Part shown: in pieces, positions 47,735 through 61,042 of the stretch
Layout: the number at the start of each line of letters is the position of its first letter
Numbering within the stretch: position 1 is the first letter of the stretch
Assembly: GCF_900182935.1 (NCBI RefSeq)
Contig: NZ_FXUE01000001.1
Span: forward strand, 496,001-560,000
Length of the DNA: 64,000 bases
Origin: Fibrobacter sp. UWB10
GTDB lineage: Bacteria > Fibrobacterota > Fibrobacteria > Fibrobacterales > Fibrobacteraceae
Direction of reading: 5' to 3'
Notes under the pieces: model-generated
Databases searched by the model: none
Told to the model about the DNA's origin: nothing
What the model saw: only the letters and a program-made list of their open reading frames with translations
Translations under genes and position numbers: made by a program

Positions 47735-49414
47735 ATGCTTTTTAAACGAGCTCTAGCATATTCAGTCGTTATCAACCTATTCTTTTTAGGTTTGTGCCTC
47801 ATTTTTGGCGATCTCAAATTCGGGGCGATTGACGACTACTTTATTGCAGCCCGACTCACTGGCGCCCTGGGTACAGAATACAATCCCCACCTAATTTTCG
47901 TAAATGCCATCTACGGCTACGCTCTCTTGCCTCTTTACCACCTTTTCCCAAAAATTGGATGGTACTATATTGGAGAAATATTCTCTGTTTTTCTCTCTTT
48001 CACTGTAATCGGCTATGTATTATTGCAACGGTGCGGAGAACGCTGGGGAGTTATTCTTGCAACCCTGTTTACAGCGCTTTTTGCAAGCGATTTTTACCTA
48101 GTTGTACAATTCACACAATGTGCATCTATTTTGAGTGCAGCGGGAATGTTACTATTCGCACATGGGGTGATAACGCAACCAAGGCACAAACTTCCGTTTA
48201 TTTTAGGTGTAATCCTAATGCTATGGGGTTCCGTTATGCGCTGGCAGGCGTTCCTGATGGGGATGCCATTCTTCTGCTTGGGGATGTTGTTCATCCTAAA
48301 AGAATGTTGGAAAGCCAAATGGCATGTAATTGTAGGTCTTGGAGTTCTTTTCACAGGCGCATTCGCAGCGCACCATTTTGACCAGCAAATTTACCATTCC
48401 TCAGTTTATGCAGATTTCGTCAAATTTCAAAGTCCACGTGTAGCCTTAGGAGACAACGGAAATTACAACCAAAATGCTGTTTACGAAGACGCTGAAGAGT
48501 TAGGACTATCAGGTAAAGATTACCAAATGCTCAAAAAATGGGTTCTATACGACACCGAGGTATTTGCTGTAGACAGTCTCAAGCGCTATACCGACATTAT
48601 CCAATCATACCGCGATCCAAATCCGACACAACTTGTACCCCGTAATTTGCTAAAAGCTTTAAGCAAATCTATTCATTCGCCACTTTTTTGGACATGGTTT
48701 ATTCTGTGCTTGATTACATATTCAACCAATCCAAAGAAATTCCTATACCTATGGGCATCTCTCATCCTAACACTCGCGTTCATAGCATATTTGCTAGCCA
48801 TGGGCAGGCTCGTATATCGCGTCGAAAGCGGATTCTGGCTATATGCCGCAGTTCTCACCATCCCACTATATGGCAAACTCAAATTTACTATTTCGCACAA
48901 GCTAGTTTATGCGATTCTCGCCATCATTGCATGCGCCAACATATATGCATACGCAACCTCTGGCGAAATGGTGCGAGATCCAAGTAGCGGCAGCATGCGC
49001 ACTCTAGCAATCGAAGACACGACCGATTATGTTCAAGTTTTCAACTATATTGACAGCCAACCCGATAAAATGTTCCTACTTTCGATGAACGCGTTTATGC
49101 GATTCAGCCATCATCGGAACCCGCCTTATTTGGCGGAGTCTAGCGGAATCTATAGAAATACAGTTTCTTTTGGTTACTGGACTCCTTACTTACCAGAAGT
49201 AAAAGAAGCCTTAAACAGTTACGGAATCAGCAATCCCATTAAAGATATTGTTCACGACAATGTTATCGTTTTAAACGAGTCAAATCTCGCCGACTTTTTG
49301 CAACGGCATTATTACGACAGCGTCACTGTAGACACGCTCAAACAAATCGGAGAAATGACTTTCTATAAATACAGGCTTGTCAATGTCAACAATACACAGG
49401 AGAACAAACAATGA
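47735..49414 (+). CDS. Large membrane protein, possible GT-C-type glycosyltransferase
   Basis: No family recognised with confidence. It is 559 residues with about ten to eleven membrane segments in the first 400 residues and a soluble C-terminal part (about 420-559). The early loop FGAIDDYFIAARLTGALGTEYNP carries paired acidic residues after the first membrane segment, as in GT-C transferases that use polyprenyl-linked sugars, and the fold pattern fits (inference). It overlaps the next gene by 4 bases (coupled). Confidence 0.7.
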   Translation: MLFKRALAYSVVINLFFLGLCLIFGDLKFGAIDDYFIAARLTGALGTEYNPHLIFVNAIYGYALLPLYHLFPKIGWYYIGEIFSVFLSFTVIGYVLLQRCGERWGVILATLFTALFASDFYLVVQFTQCASILSAAGMLLFAHGVITQPRHKLPFILGVILMLWGSVMRWQAFLMGMPFFCLGMLFILKECWKAKWHVIVGLGVLFTGAFAAHHFDQQIYHSSVYADFVKFQSPRVALGDNGNYNQNAVYEDAEELGLSGKDYQMLKKWVLYDTEVFAVDSLKRYTDIIQSYRDPNPTQLVPRNLLKALSKSIHSPLFWTWFILCLITYSTNPKKFLYLWASLILTLAFIAYLLAMGRLVYRVESGFWLYAAVLTIPLYGKLKFTISHKLVYAILAIIACANIYAYATSGEMVRDPSSGSMRTLAIEDTTDYVQVFNYIDSQPDKMFLLSMNAFMRFSHHRNPPYLAESSGIYRNTVSFGYWTPYLPEVKEALNSYGISNPIKDIVHDNVIVLNESNLADFLQRHYYDSVTVDTLKQIGEMTFYKYRLVNVNNTQENKQ

Positions 49415-50619
49415 AAAGACTCCTGTACCCACTGATAGCAAGCGCCCTCATAACAATTGTGCCTTTCTTGCTCACTTTCGAGAAGGGCCAAGACATTGTC
49501 CGAGGACTCTTTGGCTATGAGTATTTCGCATTATTACTATTTATCATTTTAGTCAAAAACAAAGTATCCAAAAATTTTTTGAGGATTATTTTACTCATCC
49601 TACTAACCGGAACTCTGTTCATTATTTCTTGGATAGACTTACATAATTTATTGGCAATAAAAGAATGGAATACCAGCTGGTATGGGATTATCCCATTCAT
49701 CACCACGGGTCTTTCCTTAGCAATAGTAAGTCCACTCAAACCATTCAAATTCAATACCATCTGCTTTATTCTATTCGTCGCCCTAATATTGCATCTAGAA
49801 ACATACAACCGTTATGCGGCACAACCCCTAGCACAATTTCCGACTATAGACTACCTTGAACGAATTGCACCTAAGCCTGTTCAGCGTAATGATGTTACCG
49901 AAGAATTCCGCAAGAAATACACTGTCACAGACTCTGTCACCATCACACGAGATTTTGTAGATACGACACGAAACAATGTAATCATTCTTGTGGAAAGCTG
50001 GGGCGTACCATTAGACATTCAACGTTTTGAAAAGCAATTAGTGGTTTTCAAAGGAATCACGAATACGACTGGCATACACAATCGCATGTACAGCCGAACT
50101 CGCACCGCCGAACGCGAAGACTTGATCAAAGCAATCACTCGCGATTCAATCACCAAGCAAAAGGATACATTATTTTTACCCAATGTATTTAACGATCTAG
50201 GTTATCAAACCGCATTTCTATTCGGCGGCGATAGCCTAGAACATTACCGATTTAAATACATAAAAAACATCGGCTTTAATGAAGACATTTACGGCAACGG
50301 TTTAAATGACCAAACAATGATTTCAAAGATTAACAGCATTATTGCAGACTCAACGCAAAAGCACTTTGTTGCTTGGACAACTGCAGACACAAAATTTCCA
50401 ATAACAGAATTTCAGGACATATATAATAGCAACGTAGATTCAATCTATTCCGTCTACACCGTTAAGTTACAAAACACACTTGCACAAATTGCGGAACTCG
50501 CACACAAGTACCCTACAACACGATTCATTATCCAAGGTGATCACAACCCCATCCTCTCCCCAATAGAATTTCAGAAAAAATTCTACAAGCGCTGGGTACC
50601 CTATATTATATTAAACTAA
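49411..50619 (+). CDS. Membrane protein with alkaline-phosphatase/sulfatase-like domain
   Basis: It is 402 residues. Four to five membrane segments lie in the first 135 residues; a periplasmic domain follows from about 185, NNVIILVESWGVPLDIQRFE, resembling the metal-site strand of LtaS/OpgB-type phosphoglycerol and phosphoethanolamine transferases. FIIQGDHNPILSP near the end supplies the usual Asp-His metal pair. A candidate nucleophile Thr lies in RMYSRTRTAERED. Shorter than typical members, so perhaps a reduced variant. It is coupled to the upstream membrane protein and is last gene of the AT-rich glycan block. Confidence 0.68.
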   Translation: MKRLLYPLIASALITIVPFLLTFEKGQDIVRGLFGYEYFALLLFIILVKNKVSKNFLRIILLILLTGTLFIISWIDLHNLLAIKEWNTSWYGIIPFITTGLSLAIVSPLKPFKFNTICFILFVALILHLETYNRYAAQPLAQFPTIDYLERIAPKPVQRNDVTEEFRKKYTVTDSVTITRDFVDTTRNNVIILVESWGVPLDIQRFEKQLVVFKGITNTTGIHNRMYSRTRTAEREDLIKAITRDSITKQKDTLFLPNVFNDLGYQTAFLFGGDSLEHYRFKYIKNIGFNEDIYGNGLNDQTMISKINSIIADSTQKHFVAWTTADTKFPITEFQDIYNSNVDSIYSVYTVKLQNTLAQIAELAHKYPTTRFIIQGDHNPILSPIEFQKKFYKRWVPYIILN

Positions 50620-50706: not shown

Positions 50707-51549
50707 ATGCTATTCTTTAACACTGCACTCAAATATCTTAACCTTGAAAAATACAAGGAAAATCTTGCCCCCACAACTATACGTACCTATTACTGGAATC
50801 TAAAAAAAATCACAGATTTCAATCCAGAAATTCACTGCGAAGATATTGACGAATCTTTTATTCGTAATTATAAATCATTCTTACAACAAAAGGGCGATAA
50901 ACCGAATACCGTTGCCAAGGCATTATCCGTATTCAGAATTTTTACTAGAAAAATGCTCATTGACAAGCTATTAAAAACAGACCCTTTCGAGAACATCAAA
51001 ATTGGACGAGTTTACTCAAAACGGAGTTTCCTTACAACTAACGAACTTAAGCATCTGTATCTAAATTATCTAGACAACAAGCATTCTCTCACAGAAACAG
51101 AACAGAATGTTATGAATGTATTCCTATTCAGTTGCTTTACCGGCCTACGATACAGCGACCTTCTTTCACTCGACGCATCGGAAATTTTCGATTGGAAAAT
51201 CCGCAAACAAACCCACAAAACAGGAGAACCCGTATATATTCCTATCCCCATCCAAGCACGATTGCTCTTGCCCGAGAAATTATCACAAGGTCGAATTTTT
51301 AAAGTGGTAGAAAATTCACATTTTAACAGAACTCTTCGCAGAGTCGCCCCAAAACTAGGTTATCACAAATACATCCATTGCCACTTGGCTAGACACACTT
51401 TTGCAACAACCTGCATTTCACTCGGAATATCTTTACCATCGACCAGCAAATTACTAGGCCATCGCAATGTCGAAACAACTCTTATTTATGCAAAATTCGT
51501 TGACACATTTCTTGACAAAGAAATGAAAAAATTCAATAAATTGCGATAA
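50707..51549 (+). CDS. Tyrosine recombinase (XerC/D-like integrase)
   Basis: Site-specific recombinase, 280 residues. An N-terminal SAM-like core-binding domain spans about 1-95 (LAPTTIRTYYWNLKKI). The catalytic domain shows all key residues: Arg148 in FTGLRYSD, probable Lys171, His226-x-x-Arg229 in HLARHTFATT, His252 in LLGHRNVETT and the nucleophile Tyr261 in TLIYAKF. The gene looks intact. It ends 36 bases before the 21-bp inverted repeat at the start of the silent pilin cassette and points toward it. The most economical idea is that it inverts the pilin segment; it could instead be a remnant of an integrated element. Confidence 0.92.
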   Translation: MLFFNTALKYLNLEKYKENLAPTTIRTYYWNLKKITDFNPEIHCEDIDESFIRNYKSFLQQKGDKPNTVAKALSVFRIFTRKMLIDKLLKTDPFENIKIGRVYSKRSFLTTNELKHLYLNYLDNKHSLTETEQNVMNVFLFSCFTGLRYSDLLSLDASEIFDWKIRKQTHKTGEPVYIPIPIQARLLLPEKLSQGRIFKVVENSHFNRTLRRVAPKLGYHKYIHCHLARHTFATTCISLGISLPSTSKLLGHRNVETTLIYAKFVDTFLDKEMKKFNKLR

Positions 51550-51577
51550 ATCATCCGCAGCAGAATTTAACCATTAG

Positions 51578-51954
51578 CAGGAAACTACGTGAAGTTGCAG
51601 CAGGCTTATATTTCTGAAGCTGTTGCTATTGGATCTTGGGCCGTTATTGGTTATAAGGGTCCTGGTGACAATACGAATGCTACTGGTGCTACCGGTGGTG
51701 CAACGTCTAAAACAAATAATTTCAGCTACAAAGACGCAACTGGATATACCAACAACACCGCTGCTTTGGACGCCACTGGAAAGACTGGTTTTACAGCCCA
51801 CAACGAAGCTAAGTTGAACGATTGCGTACAGGGTGACCACTGGACCATTACGGTTAAAGCCGGATCTGCTGCTGGTGAAGCAACTTTCACTCCGAGCACG
51901 CTTTCTCAGGACTGCTTGCAGCTCACTCCGAACTTCGCTCAGATTGGCAAGTAA
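51578..51954 (+). pseudogene. Silent 3' pilin cassette (leaderless)
   Basis: About 120 codons homologous to residues 46-174 of the complete pilin at 53827-54351, lacking the prepilin leader, the N-terminal helix and any ribosome site. Homology starts at GCAGGAAACTACGTGAAG and continues to the stop. Shared blocks are YVKLQQAYISEAVA, IGYKGPGDNT, AKLNDC and C-x-LTPNF-x-x-IGK; the two conserved cysteines frame a variable region. An upstream in-frame stop (51569) prevents read-in; the only start would be the GTG at 51589. Most differences within the shared first block are silent, so the copy is under protein-level selection rather than decaying. It has its own terminator. Confidence 0.85.
51585..51605 (+). 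repeat. 21-bp inverted repeat, left copy (candidate recombination site)
   Basis: CTACGTGAAGTTGCAGCAGG plus one further C, identical to the reverse complement of 54191-54211. It lies at the left edge of the cassette homology and codes YVKLQQA in the pilin frame. Confidence 0.9.
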
Positions 51955-51975
51955 GGTTTAGCCAAGTGAATCTTT

Positions 51976-52003
51976 AAAAGGGACTCCATTCGGAGTCCCT
52001 TTT
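51976..52003. terminator. Bidirectional terminator of pilin cassette and phosphotransferase-like gene
   Basis: AAAAGGGACTCC-attc-GGAGTCCCTTTT, a perfect 12-bp stem with T runs on both strands, 22 bases after the cassette stop and 40 bases after the stop of the convergent gene at 52043. Confidence 0.92.
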
Positions 52004-52042
52004 CTATTTTATTAAGATTAGATATAATGCATCTACAGATGG

Positions 52043-53722
52043 CTATTCTTCCTTATTCTGTTTTTTTATTAGTAAGTAACTTTCGTACATTAAGTGATTA
52101 GACATTTTTCTTATTTCTTTGTTGAGAGAGTCCAACCCGATGCATTCTATAAGCGTTTTTTTGCCGCCAAAAAGGTCCGTTCCAAACCCAAGCCGCTCTC
52201 CATCGATATTGAAATTGATTGAACTGAGAATGGTTGGGAACATATCAATGTCTGAATAAAGCCGATTTTCGTTAGAAACAGGAACCTTTGAAGGATTTAT
52301 AAAAAAGTTGACCCATTTTCTGTCTGTGGCGCCCTTAACTAAACGATTCCCAGGAAAAAGATGATCTCCAAAAACAACGATGGATGTGTTGCCATAGAAT
52401 GCTTTTGTTCTTAATGTATCCAGAAATTTGTTTAATTCCCTGGATACGCACCGTGCAGATGCTTTTAGTCTTTCGTCTTCGTTTTTCTCGTCGTTGATTT
52501 TTATGCAATCAGGGTCGTATAGTCCACTTGGAGCGTGGGTATCTATGGTGAAAAATGTCAGCGAAAAAGGTTCTGAGATGGTGTCGAGAATTTGATGGGC
52601 AAAAATAAAGGTTTCTTTGTCTTGAACAGTCTTGTATCCTTGTTTTCTTATAAGATCTGCGGTATCCAAATCCAATCTTTGTATCAAATCATCCGGACCA
52701 TAAATTTCGTCTATTTTTTGATCTATTGCGAATTGTCGGAATTGTTTGTAAAGACCCGAATTTCCTTGAAAGAAAATTTGTTTGTAATCGTACTCGTTTA
52801 AAATTTTATAAATGCTCTTATAATGATGCAGTATAGGAGTCTTTGAATAAATAGTAATATTAGGAATTCCTAAAGATCTGCTATGCATGGAGGGGAATGT
52901 GGATGTCGAACCTATGGCGTCTAGTCCGCCGCCAATATTTTTTTTGTTTTTTCCGAAACTCAGATTTTGCAAGGCGAGTTCTGTAATTTCTGGAATAAGA
53001 TTGGTATCTTGATTGCCCCCATGAATTCTGTCTGCGAAAGATGTTTCTAGCGATTCCAAGTATATGAGAATCAAGTTCCGCTTATGCTGGGGAGGTGTGA
53101 TTATGACAGAATCCGGATTGACATAATTTTCGACAAAGAATTTTGAATATGCCGTATTTTTTTCGGGCTCGTTATTTAAAATATGTATGTAGTCGGATAT
53201 GGGAATGTTATAGAAAACAGGAATGATTGCTGCAATGATATATATTCCTACAGGAACCAGTCTTTTTTTTGTGTTATTTAAAACGACGTAAAGGAAAATT
53301 GCAATAACAATTGTTATTACAAGTGCTTGGGGAATAGTGGTTGTCAGATATTGTCGAACCATTGAATAAGCGAAGTCGTCAAAGGGTTCTTGCAGTGTAA
53401 GCAACACCGTATTCGCGTCTTTAAGTGGAAATGTGCTTAAGGCCCAAACAAAGCCTGTCCTAAAAAGGACTGCCAAAAAGAGAGGCGCGATAACGAGTGG
53501 TATGTGTGAAGGTTTGAAATAATCCTTCTTTTGAAAATGCTTTGTGCGCCAATTTAAAATAATCAGCGCCAAGAAGGACAGTATATATTCCGGAGACGCG
53601 AAAAAGGGAGATATTTCTAAAAAATAGTGTTCAATTATAAAGATAAGACATATGGCAATCGCCGCAATTTTCAAAAAAAACAGAATTGGTCTTGAAATGC
53701 TATGCATATTTGAGAATTTCAT
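52043..53722 (-). CDS. Membrane-anchored sulfatase/phosphoglycerol-transferase-like protein
   Basis: It is 559 residues. Five membrane segments lie in the first 190 residues, then a periplasmic alkaline-phosphatase-superfamily domain: NLILIYLESLETSFADR (metal-binding Glu), a candidate nucleophile Thr/Ser in AIGSTSTFPSMHSRS, FSLTFFTIDTHAPSGLYDPD and VVFGDHLFPGNRL (Asp-His metal site). This is the build of LtaS/OpgB and phosphoethanolamine transferases, which move phospholipid head groups to surface polymers or proteins. It lies wholly inside the 2.6-kb segment bounded by the 21-bp inverted repeats, downstream of the pilin. A pilin-modifying role is a tempting inference. Confidence 0.85.
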   Translation of the reverse strand: MKFSNMHSISRPILFFLKIAAIAICLIFIIEHYFLEISPFFASPEYILSFLALIILNWRTKHFQKKDYFKPSHIPLVIAPLFLAVLFRTGFVWALSTFPLKDANTVLLTLQEPFDDFAYSMVRQYLTTTIPQALVITIVIAIFLYVVLNNTKKRLVPVGIYIIAAIIPVFYNIPISDYIHILNNEPEKNTAYSKFFVENYVNPDSVIITPPQHKRNLILIYLESLETSFADRIHGGNQDTNLIPEITELALQNLSFGKNKKNIGGGLDAIGSTSTFPSMHSRSLGIPNITIYSKTPILHHYKSIYKILNEYDYKQIFFQGNSGLYKQFRQFAIDQKIDEIYGPDDLIQRLDLDTADLIRKQGYKTVQDKETFIFAHQILDTISEPFSLTFFTIDTHAPSGLYDPDCIKINDEKNEDERLKASARCVSRELNKFLDTLRTKAFYGNTSIVVFGDHLFPGNRLVKGATDRKWVNFFINPSKVPVSNENRLYSDIDMFPTILSSINFNIDGERLGFGTDLFGGKKTLIECIGLDSLNKEIRKMSNHLMYESYLLIKKQNKEE

Positions 53723-53767
53723 GATATAGGATAATATAGATTTTATGCGTGATTCAGTGGATGATGC

Positions 53768-53805
53768 AAAAAAAAAGAGCCGCCCCTTTTGGGATGGCTC
53801 TTTTT
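53768..53805 (-). terminator. Terminator of the type IV pilin gene
   Basis: Minus-strand AAAAAGAGCCATCCC-aaaa-GGGGCGGCTCTTTTTTTTT stem (one G-U/mismatch) with a long T run, just past the pilin stop. Confidence 0.9.
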
Positions 53806-53826
53806 GCTTAACAAATGTCTAAGCTA

Positions 53827-54351
53827 TTACTTACCGATCTTGTCGAAGTTCGGGGTAAGTTCCGTGCAATTGGTTGTAGCTGTGAAAGTAGCATCACCTT
53901 CGGAAGAAGTAGACTTCTTAACGGTAACTTTCCAGTTAAAGTTAGAAGAAGATGCATCACCACTCTTAGCTGCGCAATCGTTCAGCTTGGCCTGATTTGC
54001 AACAACGAAACCCACGACTTCATCAGTGCCTAAAGTTGTCGTATTATTCGTGTAAGTGGCACCATCCGCATATTTGAAGTTTGTTGTTCCAGACTTGTCA
54101 CCGCCAGTTGCAGTGCCCTTGGTGTTGTCGCCCGGGCCCTTGTAGCCGATAATCTGCCAGTTACCAACAGCGACTGCTTCAGAAATGTAGGCCTGCTGCA
54201 ACTTCACGTAGGTACCGGCGGCAGGGCCGACTTCGGAAGCCTTGGACTTAGCGATCATGCCGAACAGTTTCGGTACTGCGACGGCGGCCAAGATGCCCAT
54301 GATCACGATCACGACCATCAATTCGATAAGGGTAAAACCTTGCTTTTTCAT
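53827..54351 (-). CDS. Type IV pilin (major pilin candidate)
   Basis: It is 174 residues. A short prepilin leader MKKQG is followed by FTLIELMVVIVIMGILAAVAVPKLFG: cleavage between Gly5 and Phe6, Glu at mature position 5, one long hydrophobic helix. The globular part shares blocks with the silent cassette and has a conserved Cys pair (LNDC ... NCTELTPNF) likely to form the D-region disulfide. AAGGAG lies six bases before the ATG. The 21-bp inverted repeat (54191-54211) codes residues 48-54, the hinge between helix and head. The gene appears strongly expressed (good ribosome site, strong terminator). Confidence 0.92.
   Translation of the reverse strand: MKKQGFTLIELMVVIVIMGILAAVAVPKLFGMIAKSKASEVGPAAGTYVKLQQAYISEAVAVGNWQIIGYKGPGDNTKGTATGGDKSGTTNFKYADGATYTNNTTTLGTDEVVGFVVANQAKLNDCAAKSGDASSSNFNWKVTVKKSTSSEGDATFTATTNCTELTPNFDKIGK
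54191..54211 (-). repeat. 21-bp inverted repeat, right copy (inside the pilin gene)
   Basis: Reads CTACGTGAAGTTGCAGCAGG plus C on the minus strand, identical to 51585-51605 and in the same codon phase. Recombination between the two copies inverts 2,627 bp. Confidence 0.9.
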
Positions 54352-60733: not shown

Positions 60734-61042
60734 ATGGCTACTACAAAGACTGCAAAGAAGCCGGCTGCTAAGAAGCCCGCTGCTAAGAAACCCGCTGCCG
60801 CTAAGAAGCCGGCCGCTGCTAAGAAGCCCGCTGCTGCAAAGAAGCCGGCTGCTAAGAAGCCCGCCGCAAAGAAGCCGGCTGCCGCTAAGAAGCCCGCTGC
60901 TGCAAAGAAGCCGGCCGCTGCTAAGAAGCCCGCTGCTGCAAAGAAGCCGGCTGCTAAGAAGCCCGCCGCAAAGAAGCCGGCTGCCGCAAAGAAGCCGGTT
61001 GCTAAGAAGCCGGCCGCTAAGAAGCCCGCTGCTAAGAAGTAA
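60734..61042 (+). CDS. Histone-H1-like Lys/Ala/Pro-repeat protein
   Basis: It is 102 residues, almost entirely tandem AAKKP or AAAKKP units (about 18 copies) after MATTKTAKKP. Composition is Ala, Lys and Pro only, strongly basic, like the C-terminal tail of eukaryotic histone H1 and bacterial H1-like proteins; it probably binds DNA or RNA without sequence preference. I chose the ATG at 60734, preceded by AAGGAAG; upstream in-frame codons are in an AT-rich non-coding leader. The repeat DNA is GC-rich and can change length by slippage. Strong terminator downstream. Confidence 0.88.
   Translation: MATTKTAKKPAAKKPAAKKPAAAKKPAAAKKPAAAKKPAAKKPAAKKPAAAKKPAAAKKPAAAKKPAAAKKPAAKKPAAKKPAAAKKPVAKKPAAKKPAAKK

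Follow-up and report, generated by a model that had tools for sequence, protein, structure and literature searches.

Organisation of the locus

The window analysed here, a 64,000-nucleotide stretch of the genome of Fibrobacter sp. UWB10, contains a tyrosine recombinase gene next to two pieces of pilin coding sequence on opposite strands, one belonging to a complete gene and the other lacking the N-terminal part (Table 1). Both pieces carry the 21-bp sequence CTACGTGAAGTTGCAGCAGGC, in inverted orientation to each other. Exact copies of this sequence occur only twice in the 3.48-Mb genome, the next best match having three mismatches, and 0.01 repeats of 21 bp would be expected by chance in a scan of the window. 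The two pilin pieces are, in addition, 74% identical over 121 nt, and at that level of identity an exact 21-bp run is expected with a probability of about 0.05. Because both copies of the repeat lie in homologous pilin coding DNA, the window alone is no proof of a recombination site, and it is the comparative data that supply it.

Table 1. Features of the pilin locus and its surroundings, in window coordinates.
Feature	Position	Strand	Remarks
Two membrane-protein genes, families F5 and F2	47735..50619	+	Upstream of recombinase; recur at these loci
Tyrosine recombinase gene, 280 aa	50707..51549	+	Outside predicted invertible segment, aimed at segment
Predicted invertible segment, 2,627 bp	51585..54211	.	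Between inverted sites
Left predicted recombination site, CTACGTGAAGTTGCAGCAGGC	51585..51605	+	Exact 21-bp repeat
Silent C-terminal pilin cassette	51585..51954	+	Lacks leader and N-terminal helix; site in same reading frame
Intrinsic terminator	51976..52003	+	Directly 3' of silent cassette
LtaS/phosphoglycerol-transferase-like sulfatase-fold membrane protein	52043..53722	-	Inside invertible segment
C-terminal pilin cassette now joined	53827..54211	-	Part of complete pilin gene
Complete type IV pilin gene, 174 aa	53827..54351	-	54212-54351 constant (leader, most of helix alpha-1)
Right predicted recombination site, inverted copy of CTACGTGAAGTTGCAGCAGGC	54191..54211	-	Within pilin gene, codons 47-54

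The recombinase carries a Pfam Phage_integrase domain (PF00589, 1.1e-14) and a SAM-like N-terminal domain, and its predicted fold matches XerA, IntI4, lambda Int and XerH in Foldseek. R148, K171, H226, R229, H252 and Y261 are invariant in an alignment of 36 recombinase homologs, which gives the full R-K-H-R-H-Y set. The initial annotation had called the gene an intact tyrosine recombinase on the basis of R148, H226/R229, H252 and Y261; all of these residues are present as stated, and both the Pfam match and the invariance agree with that call. By its catalytic set and the fold of its catalytic domain, the protein belongs to the tyrosine recombinase superfamily. Nineteen residues follow Y261, and the final helix of the structure model comprises residues 267-278. 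The stop codon (ending at 51549) and the left repeat (beginning at 51585) are separated by 35 bp, a correction of the 36 bp given before. The GC content of the recombinase and LtaS-like genes is about 36.5%, below that of the two pilin pieces (48-49%) and of the window as a whole (47.7%), which suggests a foreign origin of these two genes.

The complete pilin matches PF07963 and TIGR02532, the prepilin N-terminal motif. Its AlphaFold model (mean pLDDT 85) has a long N-terminal helix (residues 8-59), and the best Foldseek matches of this model are Neisseria pilins, with a probability of 0.99 but an E value of 0.02. With prepilin motif and pilin fold together, the protein is a type IV pilin. Since the site codons fall near the end of the long helix in the model, a swap at this point would be predicted to exchange essentially the entire globular head. 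When the segment between the repeats is inverted in silico, the constant part and the silent cassette are joined in frame and encode a pilin of 169 aa.

A sigma-70 scan near the pilin gene returned about as many sites as in shuffled sequence, and we claim no promoter there. An operon of the pilin and the downstream LtaS-like gene was considered, but the case for it is weak, as most cassettes have their own terminator and the next gene on the same strand varies. The F5 and F2 membrane-protein genes, which have no Pfam match, recur as a pair at many pilin loci, some of which have more than a single copy, and may possibly encode pilin or glycan modification enzymes. Elsewhere in the window (60750-61039) lies a tandem array of 15-18 bp units with a higher period of 84 bp, which is also found in a genome of the same species (G094).

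Recombinase homologs and cassette arrays in related genomes

Our search covered 111 genomes of the family, and matches with an E value of 1e-40 or lower came from 43. Close homologs of the recombinase (49-100% identity) are encoded in about 42 of these Fibrobacteraceae genomes, and a phylum-wide search returned no further homologs beyond this family set. At 19 of 44 aligned loci the recombinase shares its locus with a complete pilin gene, and cassettes lacking the N-terminal part are present in both orientations at nearly all of these; a single one of the 19 (L066) is without a silent cassette within the stretch read. The largest array, in a single-contig genome (G102), holds nine silent cassettes in both orientations, F. 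intestinalis ATCC 43854 (G097) has eight C-terminal pilin copies, and such a locus is found even where the recombinase is just 52% identical (G109). The silent cassettes of these relatives are promoterless C-terminal pilin pieces beside one complete pilin gene, which begin in frame exactly at the site and are preceded by DNA that differs between cassettes. The relatives therefore display the defining layout of a shufflon (several segments, sites in both orientations, alternative C-termini), while the window has two sites and one segment.

At least two standard sites were present in 23 of the 43 recombinase-positive genomes and in none of the 68 negative ones (Fisher 3e-12, without correction for phylogeny). 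Several genomes have an array with the same sites although their recombinase is on a different contig or separated from the array by hundreds of kilobases, so that the enzyme presumably acts in trans there. The initial annotation had proposed that the recombinase may act on the 21-bp sites in cis. Sequence comparison strongly supports such action through the 19 linked loci, the distribution of sites over the 43 and 68 genomes, and the position of breakpoints at the sites (see below), whereas a restriction to cis does not agree with the remote recombinases. The search that it had suggested, for homologs beside partial pilin genes, yielded the 19 linked loci and not a consistent placement beside unrelated genes.

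We considered whether one recombinase clade is strictly tied to pilin loci and rejected this, as the tree needs at least six changes between adjacent and remote positions, meaning that linkage was repeatedly gained or lost. In one clade (L083-L096) the recombinase is remote from the pilin array, and its surroundings, which include a B12-binding/radical-SAM protein, are conserved. In another genome (G083, L006 8001-8834 and downstream) the recombinase is followed by copies of a repeated unit starting AACAGGGCGGTAGGTCGCCGCCTGAGATAAA. Toxin-antitoxin-type genes (AbiEi/AbiEii, HipA) and genes for a DUF4143 ATPase and DUF3990 recur between cassettes (L077, L098, L080, L081, L082 and L103).

A silent cassette was not seen in about ten recombinase-positive genomes, most of which are incomplete. 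G094 has neither the recombinase nor a silent cassette, and a genome that likewise has no recombinase (G093, L164 5486-10014) retains one silent cassette with the intact-looking site TACGTGAAGTTGCAACAGGC and an expressed pilin gene with the drifted site TACGTAAAGCTC; this looks like a decaying system.

If the switching is real, it could also be the work of another recombinase of the genome, with the studied one a passenger. The source genome does encode further tyrosine recombinases, including distant ones (24-26% identity), and linkage to the pilin has been lost in several relatives; however, the studied family occupies pilin loci (19 of 44 copies) and its presence tracks that of the sites, it being the sole family tested in this way. 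We regard a passenger role as improbable.

Site architecture and rearrangement between genomes

An information profile over 79 silent cassettes gives the conserved block TACGTGAAGTTGCAG[GC]ANGC, with weak conservation of the few bases to its left. The site thus consists of a core, TACGTGAAG, a conserved right side (TTGCAGSANGC) and a variable left side, with about 20 bp conserved in all; some genomes carry the variants TACGTGCATATGCAG or TACATCAAGTTGCAG. A two-armed site of the Xer/dif type was rejected, because the aligned sites show no clear dyad and are conserved on one side. The earlier remark that the repeat has no clear Xer-like pair of arms is thereby confirmed, and the site resembles the asymmetric sfx sites of Rci instead. 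The initial annotation had also pointed to GCAGG on both sides of the left repeat as a possible part of the real site. The motif is indeed present on both sides, but its right copy is inside the repeat, and we reject it as a component of the functional site since other silent cassettes are without it. The left copy matches the pilin codons GCAGGAACC, which in several relatives likewise stand before the cassette nearest the recombinase.

The clearest rearrangements are seen between two genomes of the Fibrobacter intestinalis group (G097 and G098). At four places the 100 bp flanking a cassette are 100% identical in both genomes, yet the cassettes joined to these flanks are only 37-52% identical. 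The switch from flank to cassette falls inside TACGTGAAG. Kilobase blocks of 94-98% identity are permuted and inverted between these genomes, with their ends at sites, and over 100 nt a silent cassette of G098 is 98% identical to one that G097 expresses. The same discordance of flank and cassette was observed in three further pairs (G054/G024, G053/G051 and G025/G035). Between the window and a sister species (G056) both outer flanks are kept and all DNA between the sites is replaced as a block, and similarity between the window and the recombinase-free G094 stops at the site. Judging from these comparisons, DNA is rearranged between species with breakpoints at the sites.

One assembly (G060) halts at the array. 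Its contig C4 overlaps the reverse of C7, and C7 the reverse of C1, the overlap being exactly 95 bp in each case. Neither 95-mer occurs elsewhere in the genome, and each begins at AACC, which is the longest suffix common to the two alternative left flanks. From the contigs alone we infer that the reads of this one culture probably held both orientations of a 7.9-kb segment, since a de Bruijn assembly would break a unique sequence in this way if both junctions were among the reads.

RecA-dependent homologous recombination or gene conversion as at Neisseria pilE/pilS, with the recombinase uninvolved, might account for exchange among the cassettes, which share short homology at the site and as silent partial pilins resemble pilS. 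However, the breakpoints are confined to one word of about 9-15 bp rather than scattered across the homology, cassettes were moved with their flanking blocks and inverted rather than copied, and multi-site arrays exist only alongside the recombinase. We therefore give this explanation very little weight.

Selection on the silent cassettes

Open reading frames of at least 85 codons are retained in 79 of the 80 silent cassettes with full downstream sequence, a count in which the site filter drops cassettes with a stop among the first residues, such as one in G102. The ten closest pairs of silent cassettes have a median dN/dS of 0.31. On this sequence evidence the silent cassettes are under purifying selection. 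A terminator-like hairpin follows the stop codon within 110 nt in 53 of 61 silent cassettes, compared with 48 of 300 random stretches. The expressed pilins keep the codons TAC GTG AAG TTG CAG in 19 of 25 recombinase-positive genomes and in 4 of 17 negative ones (P 0.001, phylogeny ignored); in two of these four (G019 and G049) contigs end exactly at the site.

These observations bear on a simpler account, in which the 21-bp repeat only reflects conservation of the pilin codons, the partial pilin is a duplicate in decay and the neighbouring recombinase has nothing to do with either. Its main asset is that the repeat does lie in homologous coding DNA, where the probability of a 21-bp run is the modest value given above. 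Silent cassettes that are open and under purifying selection do not fit a decaying duplicate, though, nor does a cassette homology that begins exactly at the site with unrelated DNA upstream. The choice among synonymous codons at the site is largely constant only in genomes with the recombinase, the association between site and recombinase persists when the latter is remote, and the block rearrangements at sites in G097 and G098 contradict this account, to which we attach a very slim probability.

Least credible of all is that the gene encodes a XerC/XerD housekeeping enzyme or the integrase of a mobile element. This is suggested by the top NCBIfam matches (XerC, XerD and XerA-like) and by structural matches to XerA, XerH and phage integrases, but is opposed by a score of 90.4 bits against an equivalog cut-off of 335, by the presence of the gene in less than half of the family genomes (about 42 of 111), and, short of a systematic search for attachment sites, by the lack of element boundaries noted around it.

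A proposed pilin shufflon

We propose that the window very probably holds a two-cassette chromosomal type IV pilin shufflon, in which the recombinase inverts the 2.6 kb between the sites. The enzyme would bind the asymmetric site of about 20 bp, pair the two inverted copies, and cut and rejoin the DNA at both, so that the intervening 2.6 kb flips. This would exchange the C-terminal cassette, with its own stop and terminator, on the sole complete N-terminal pilin part. The same enzyme family would serve up to nine silent cassettes in the relatives, in cis or in trans. Catalysis of the inversion by this recombinase, its occurrence in the strain of the window and an effect on pilus adhesion or recognition are what we infer from these comparisons.

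The C-terminal domain of Rci, the shufflon recombinase of R64, is thought to restrict reactions to inversion. The enzyme of the window is without this domain, and sites in direct repeat in the large arrays should allow deletion, a point that counts against the shufflon reading, as do the recombinase-positive genomes without a visible silent cassette, the lack of both elements in G094 and the silent cassette of the recombinase-free G093. The toxin-antitoxin-type (AbiEii, HipA), DUF4143 and DUF3990 genes between cassettes might, hypothetically, select against such deletion. More tentatively, and with somewhat more doubt than confidence, we suggest a family-wide shufflon that would diversify a type IV pilin in cellulose degraders of the rumen and gut through a compact Xer-like recombinase acting on asymmetric sites in cis or in trans. 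Modules consisting of a complete C-terminus and its terminator would pass from species to species together with the membrane enzymes that match them, and toxin-antitoxin genes would guard the array from deletion.

Type IV pili of Fibrobacter are held to aid attachment to cellulose (PMC6851124, PMC4668043, PMC3079729). The pilin FSU_2567 of F. succinogenes S85 has been reported as absent from cellulolysis-deficient mutants (PMC6851124), and adherence-deficient Fibrobacter mutants with missing pilins have been reported (PMC3079729). Through the proposed switch the cell could alter the fibre that it probably uses for holding plant material. If this is true, a reversible exchange of pilin heads would mean that the cells of an isogenic culture differ in how they adhere and recognise surfaces, and possibly in their sensitivity to phages; it would also make genome assembly and work with mutants more difficult in the Fibrobacter group. 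The system would further provide a small recombinase for asymmetric sites of the Rci kind that does not need the extra domain of Rci. We found no description of pilin inversion in Fibrobacter in the open-access literature, and absence there is no proof of novelty.

Comparison with known systems

Silent partial pilins that recombine into one expression locus are also known from Neisseria pilE/pilS, where sequence is copied by RecA-dependent gene conversion (PMC11868660). In Fibrobacter, in contrast, blocks of DNA change place and orientation at one short site that is always the same. The vpma shufflon of Mycoplasma agalactiae, a chromosomal multi-inversion system with a XerC-like tyrosine recombinase (PMC11868660), resembles the Fibrobacter system in its chromosomal location and Xer-like tyrosine recombinase. 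It differs in switching the promoter joining of lipoprotein genes rather than pilin C-termini.

The two-cassette form found in the window has the same plan as the pilin inversion of Moraxella. In Moraxella bovis and M. lacunata, an invertible segment of about 2 kb with a partial silent pilin and a junction within the pilin gene was reportedly described by Marrs in 1988 (cited in PMC11868660). Moraxella Piv belongs with the DEDD recombinases of the IS110 group, whereas the Fibrobacter enzyme is a tyrosine recombinase, and arrays in relatives of the latter reach nine cassettes. The initial annotation had anticipated this difference in enzyme class, which Pfam and Foldseek bear out.

In layout the Fibrobacter system resembles the R64/IncI2 shufflon (Rci, sfx, PilV), with which it shares a tyrosine recombinase, one constant N-terminal pilin part and several C-terminal cassettes in both orientations. 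In the sfx sites of R64 the core and right part, about 19 bp, are conserved, whereas the left arm varies (PMC11852207). When the 79 silent cassettes are set against this published description, the Fibrobacter site is likewise asymmetric, conserved in its core and right side and variable to the left. However, the Fibrobacter system is chromosomal, uses another site sequence and is apparently capable of acting in trans, and its arrays hold toxin-antitoxin and membrane-enzyme genes between the cassettes. The Fibrobacter pilin retains the entire conserved N-terminus of a prepilin and has the look of a major type IVa pilin, not of PilV. The recombinases differ as well, since the Fibrobacter enzyme stops 19 aa past its catalytic tyrosine (Y261) and the extra C-terminal domain of Rci is therefore absent. 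Having no such domain and not being a DEDD enzyme, it is a member of neither the R64 Rci nor the Moraxella Piv family.
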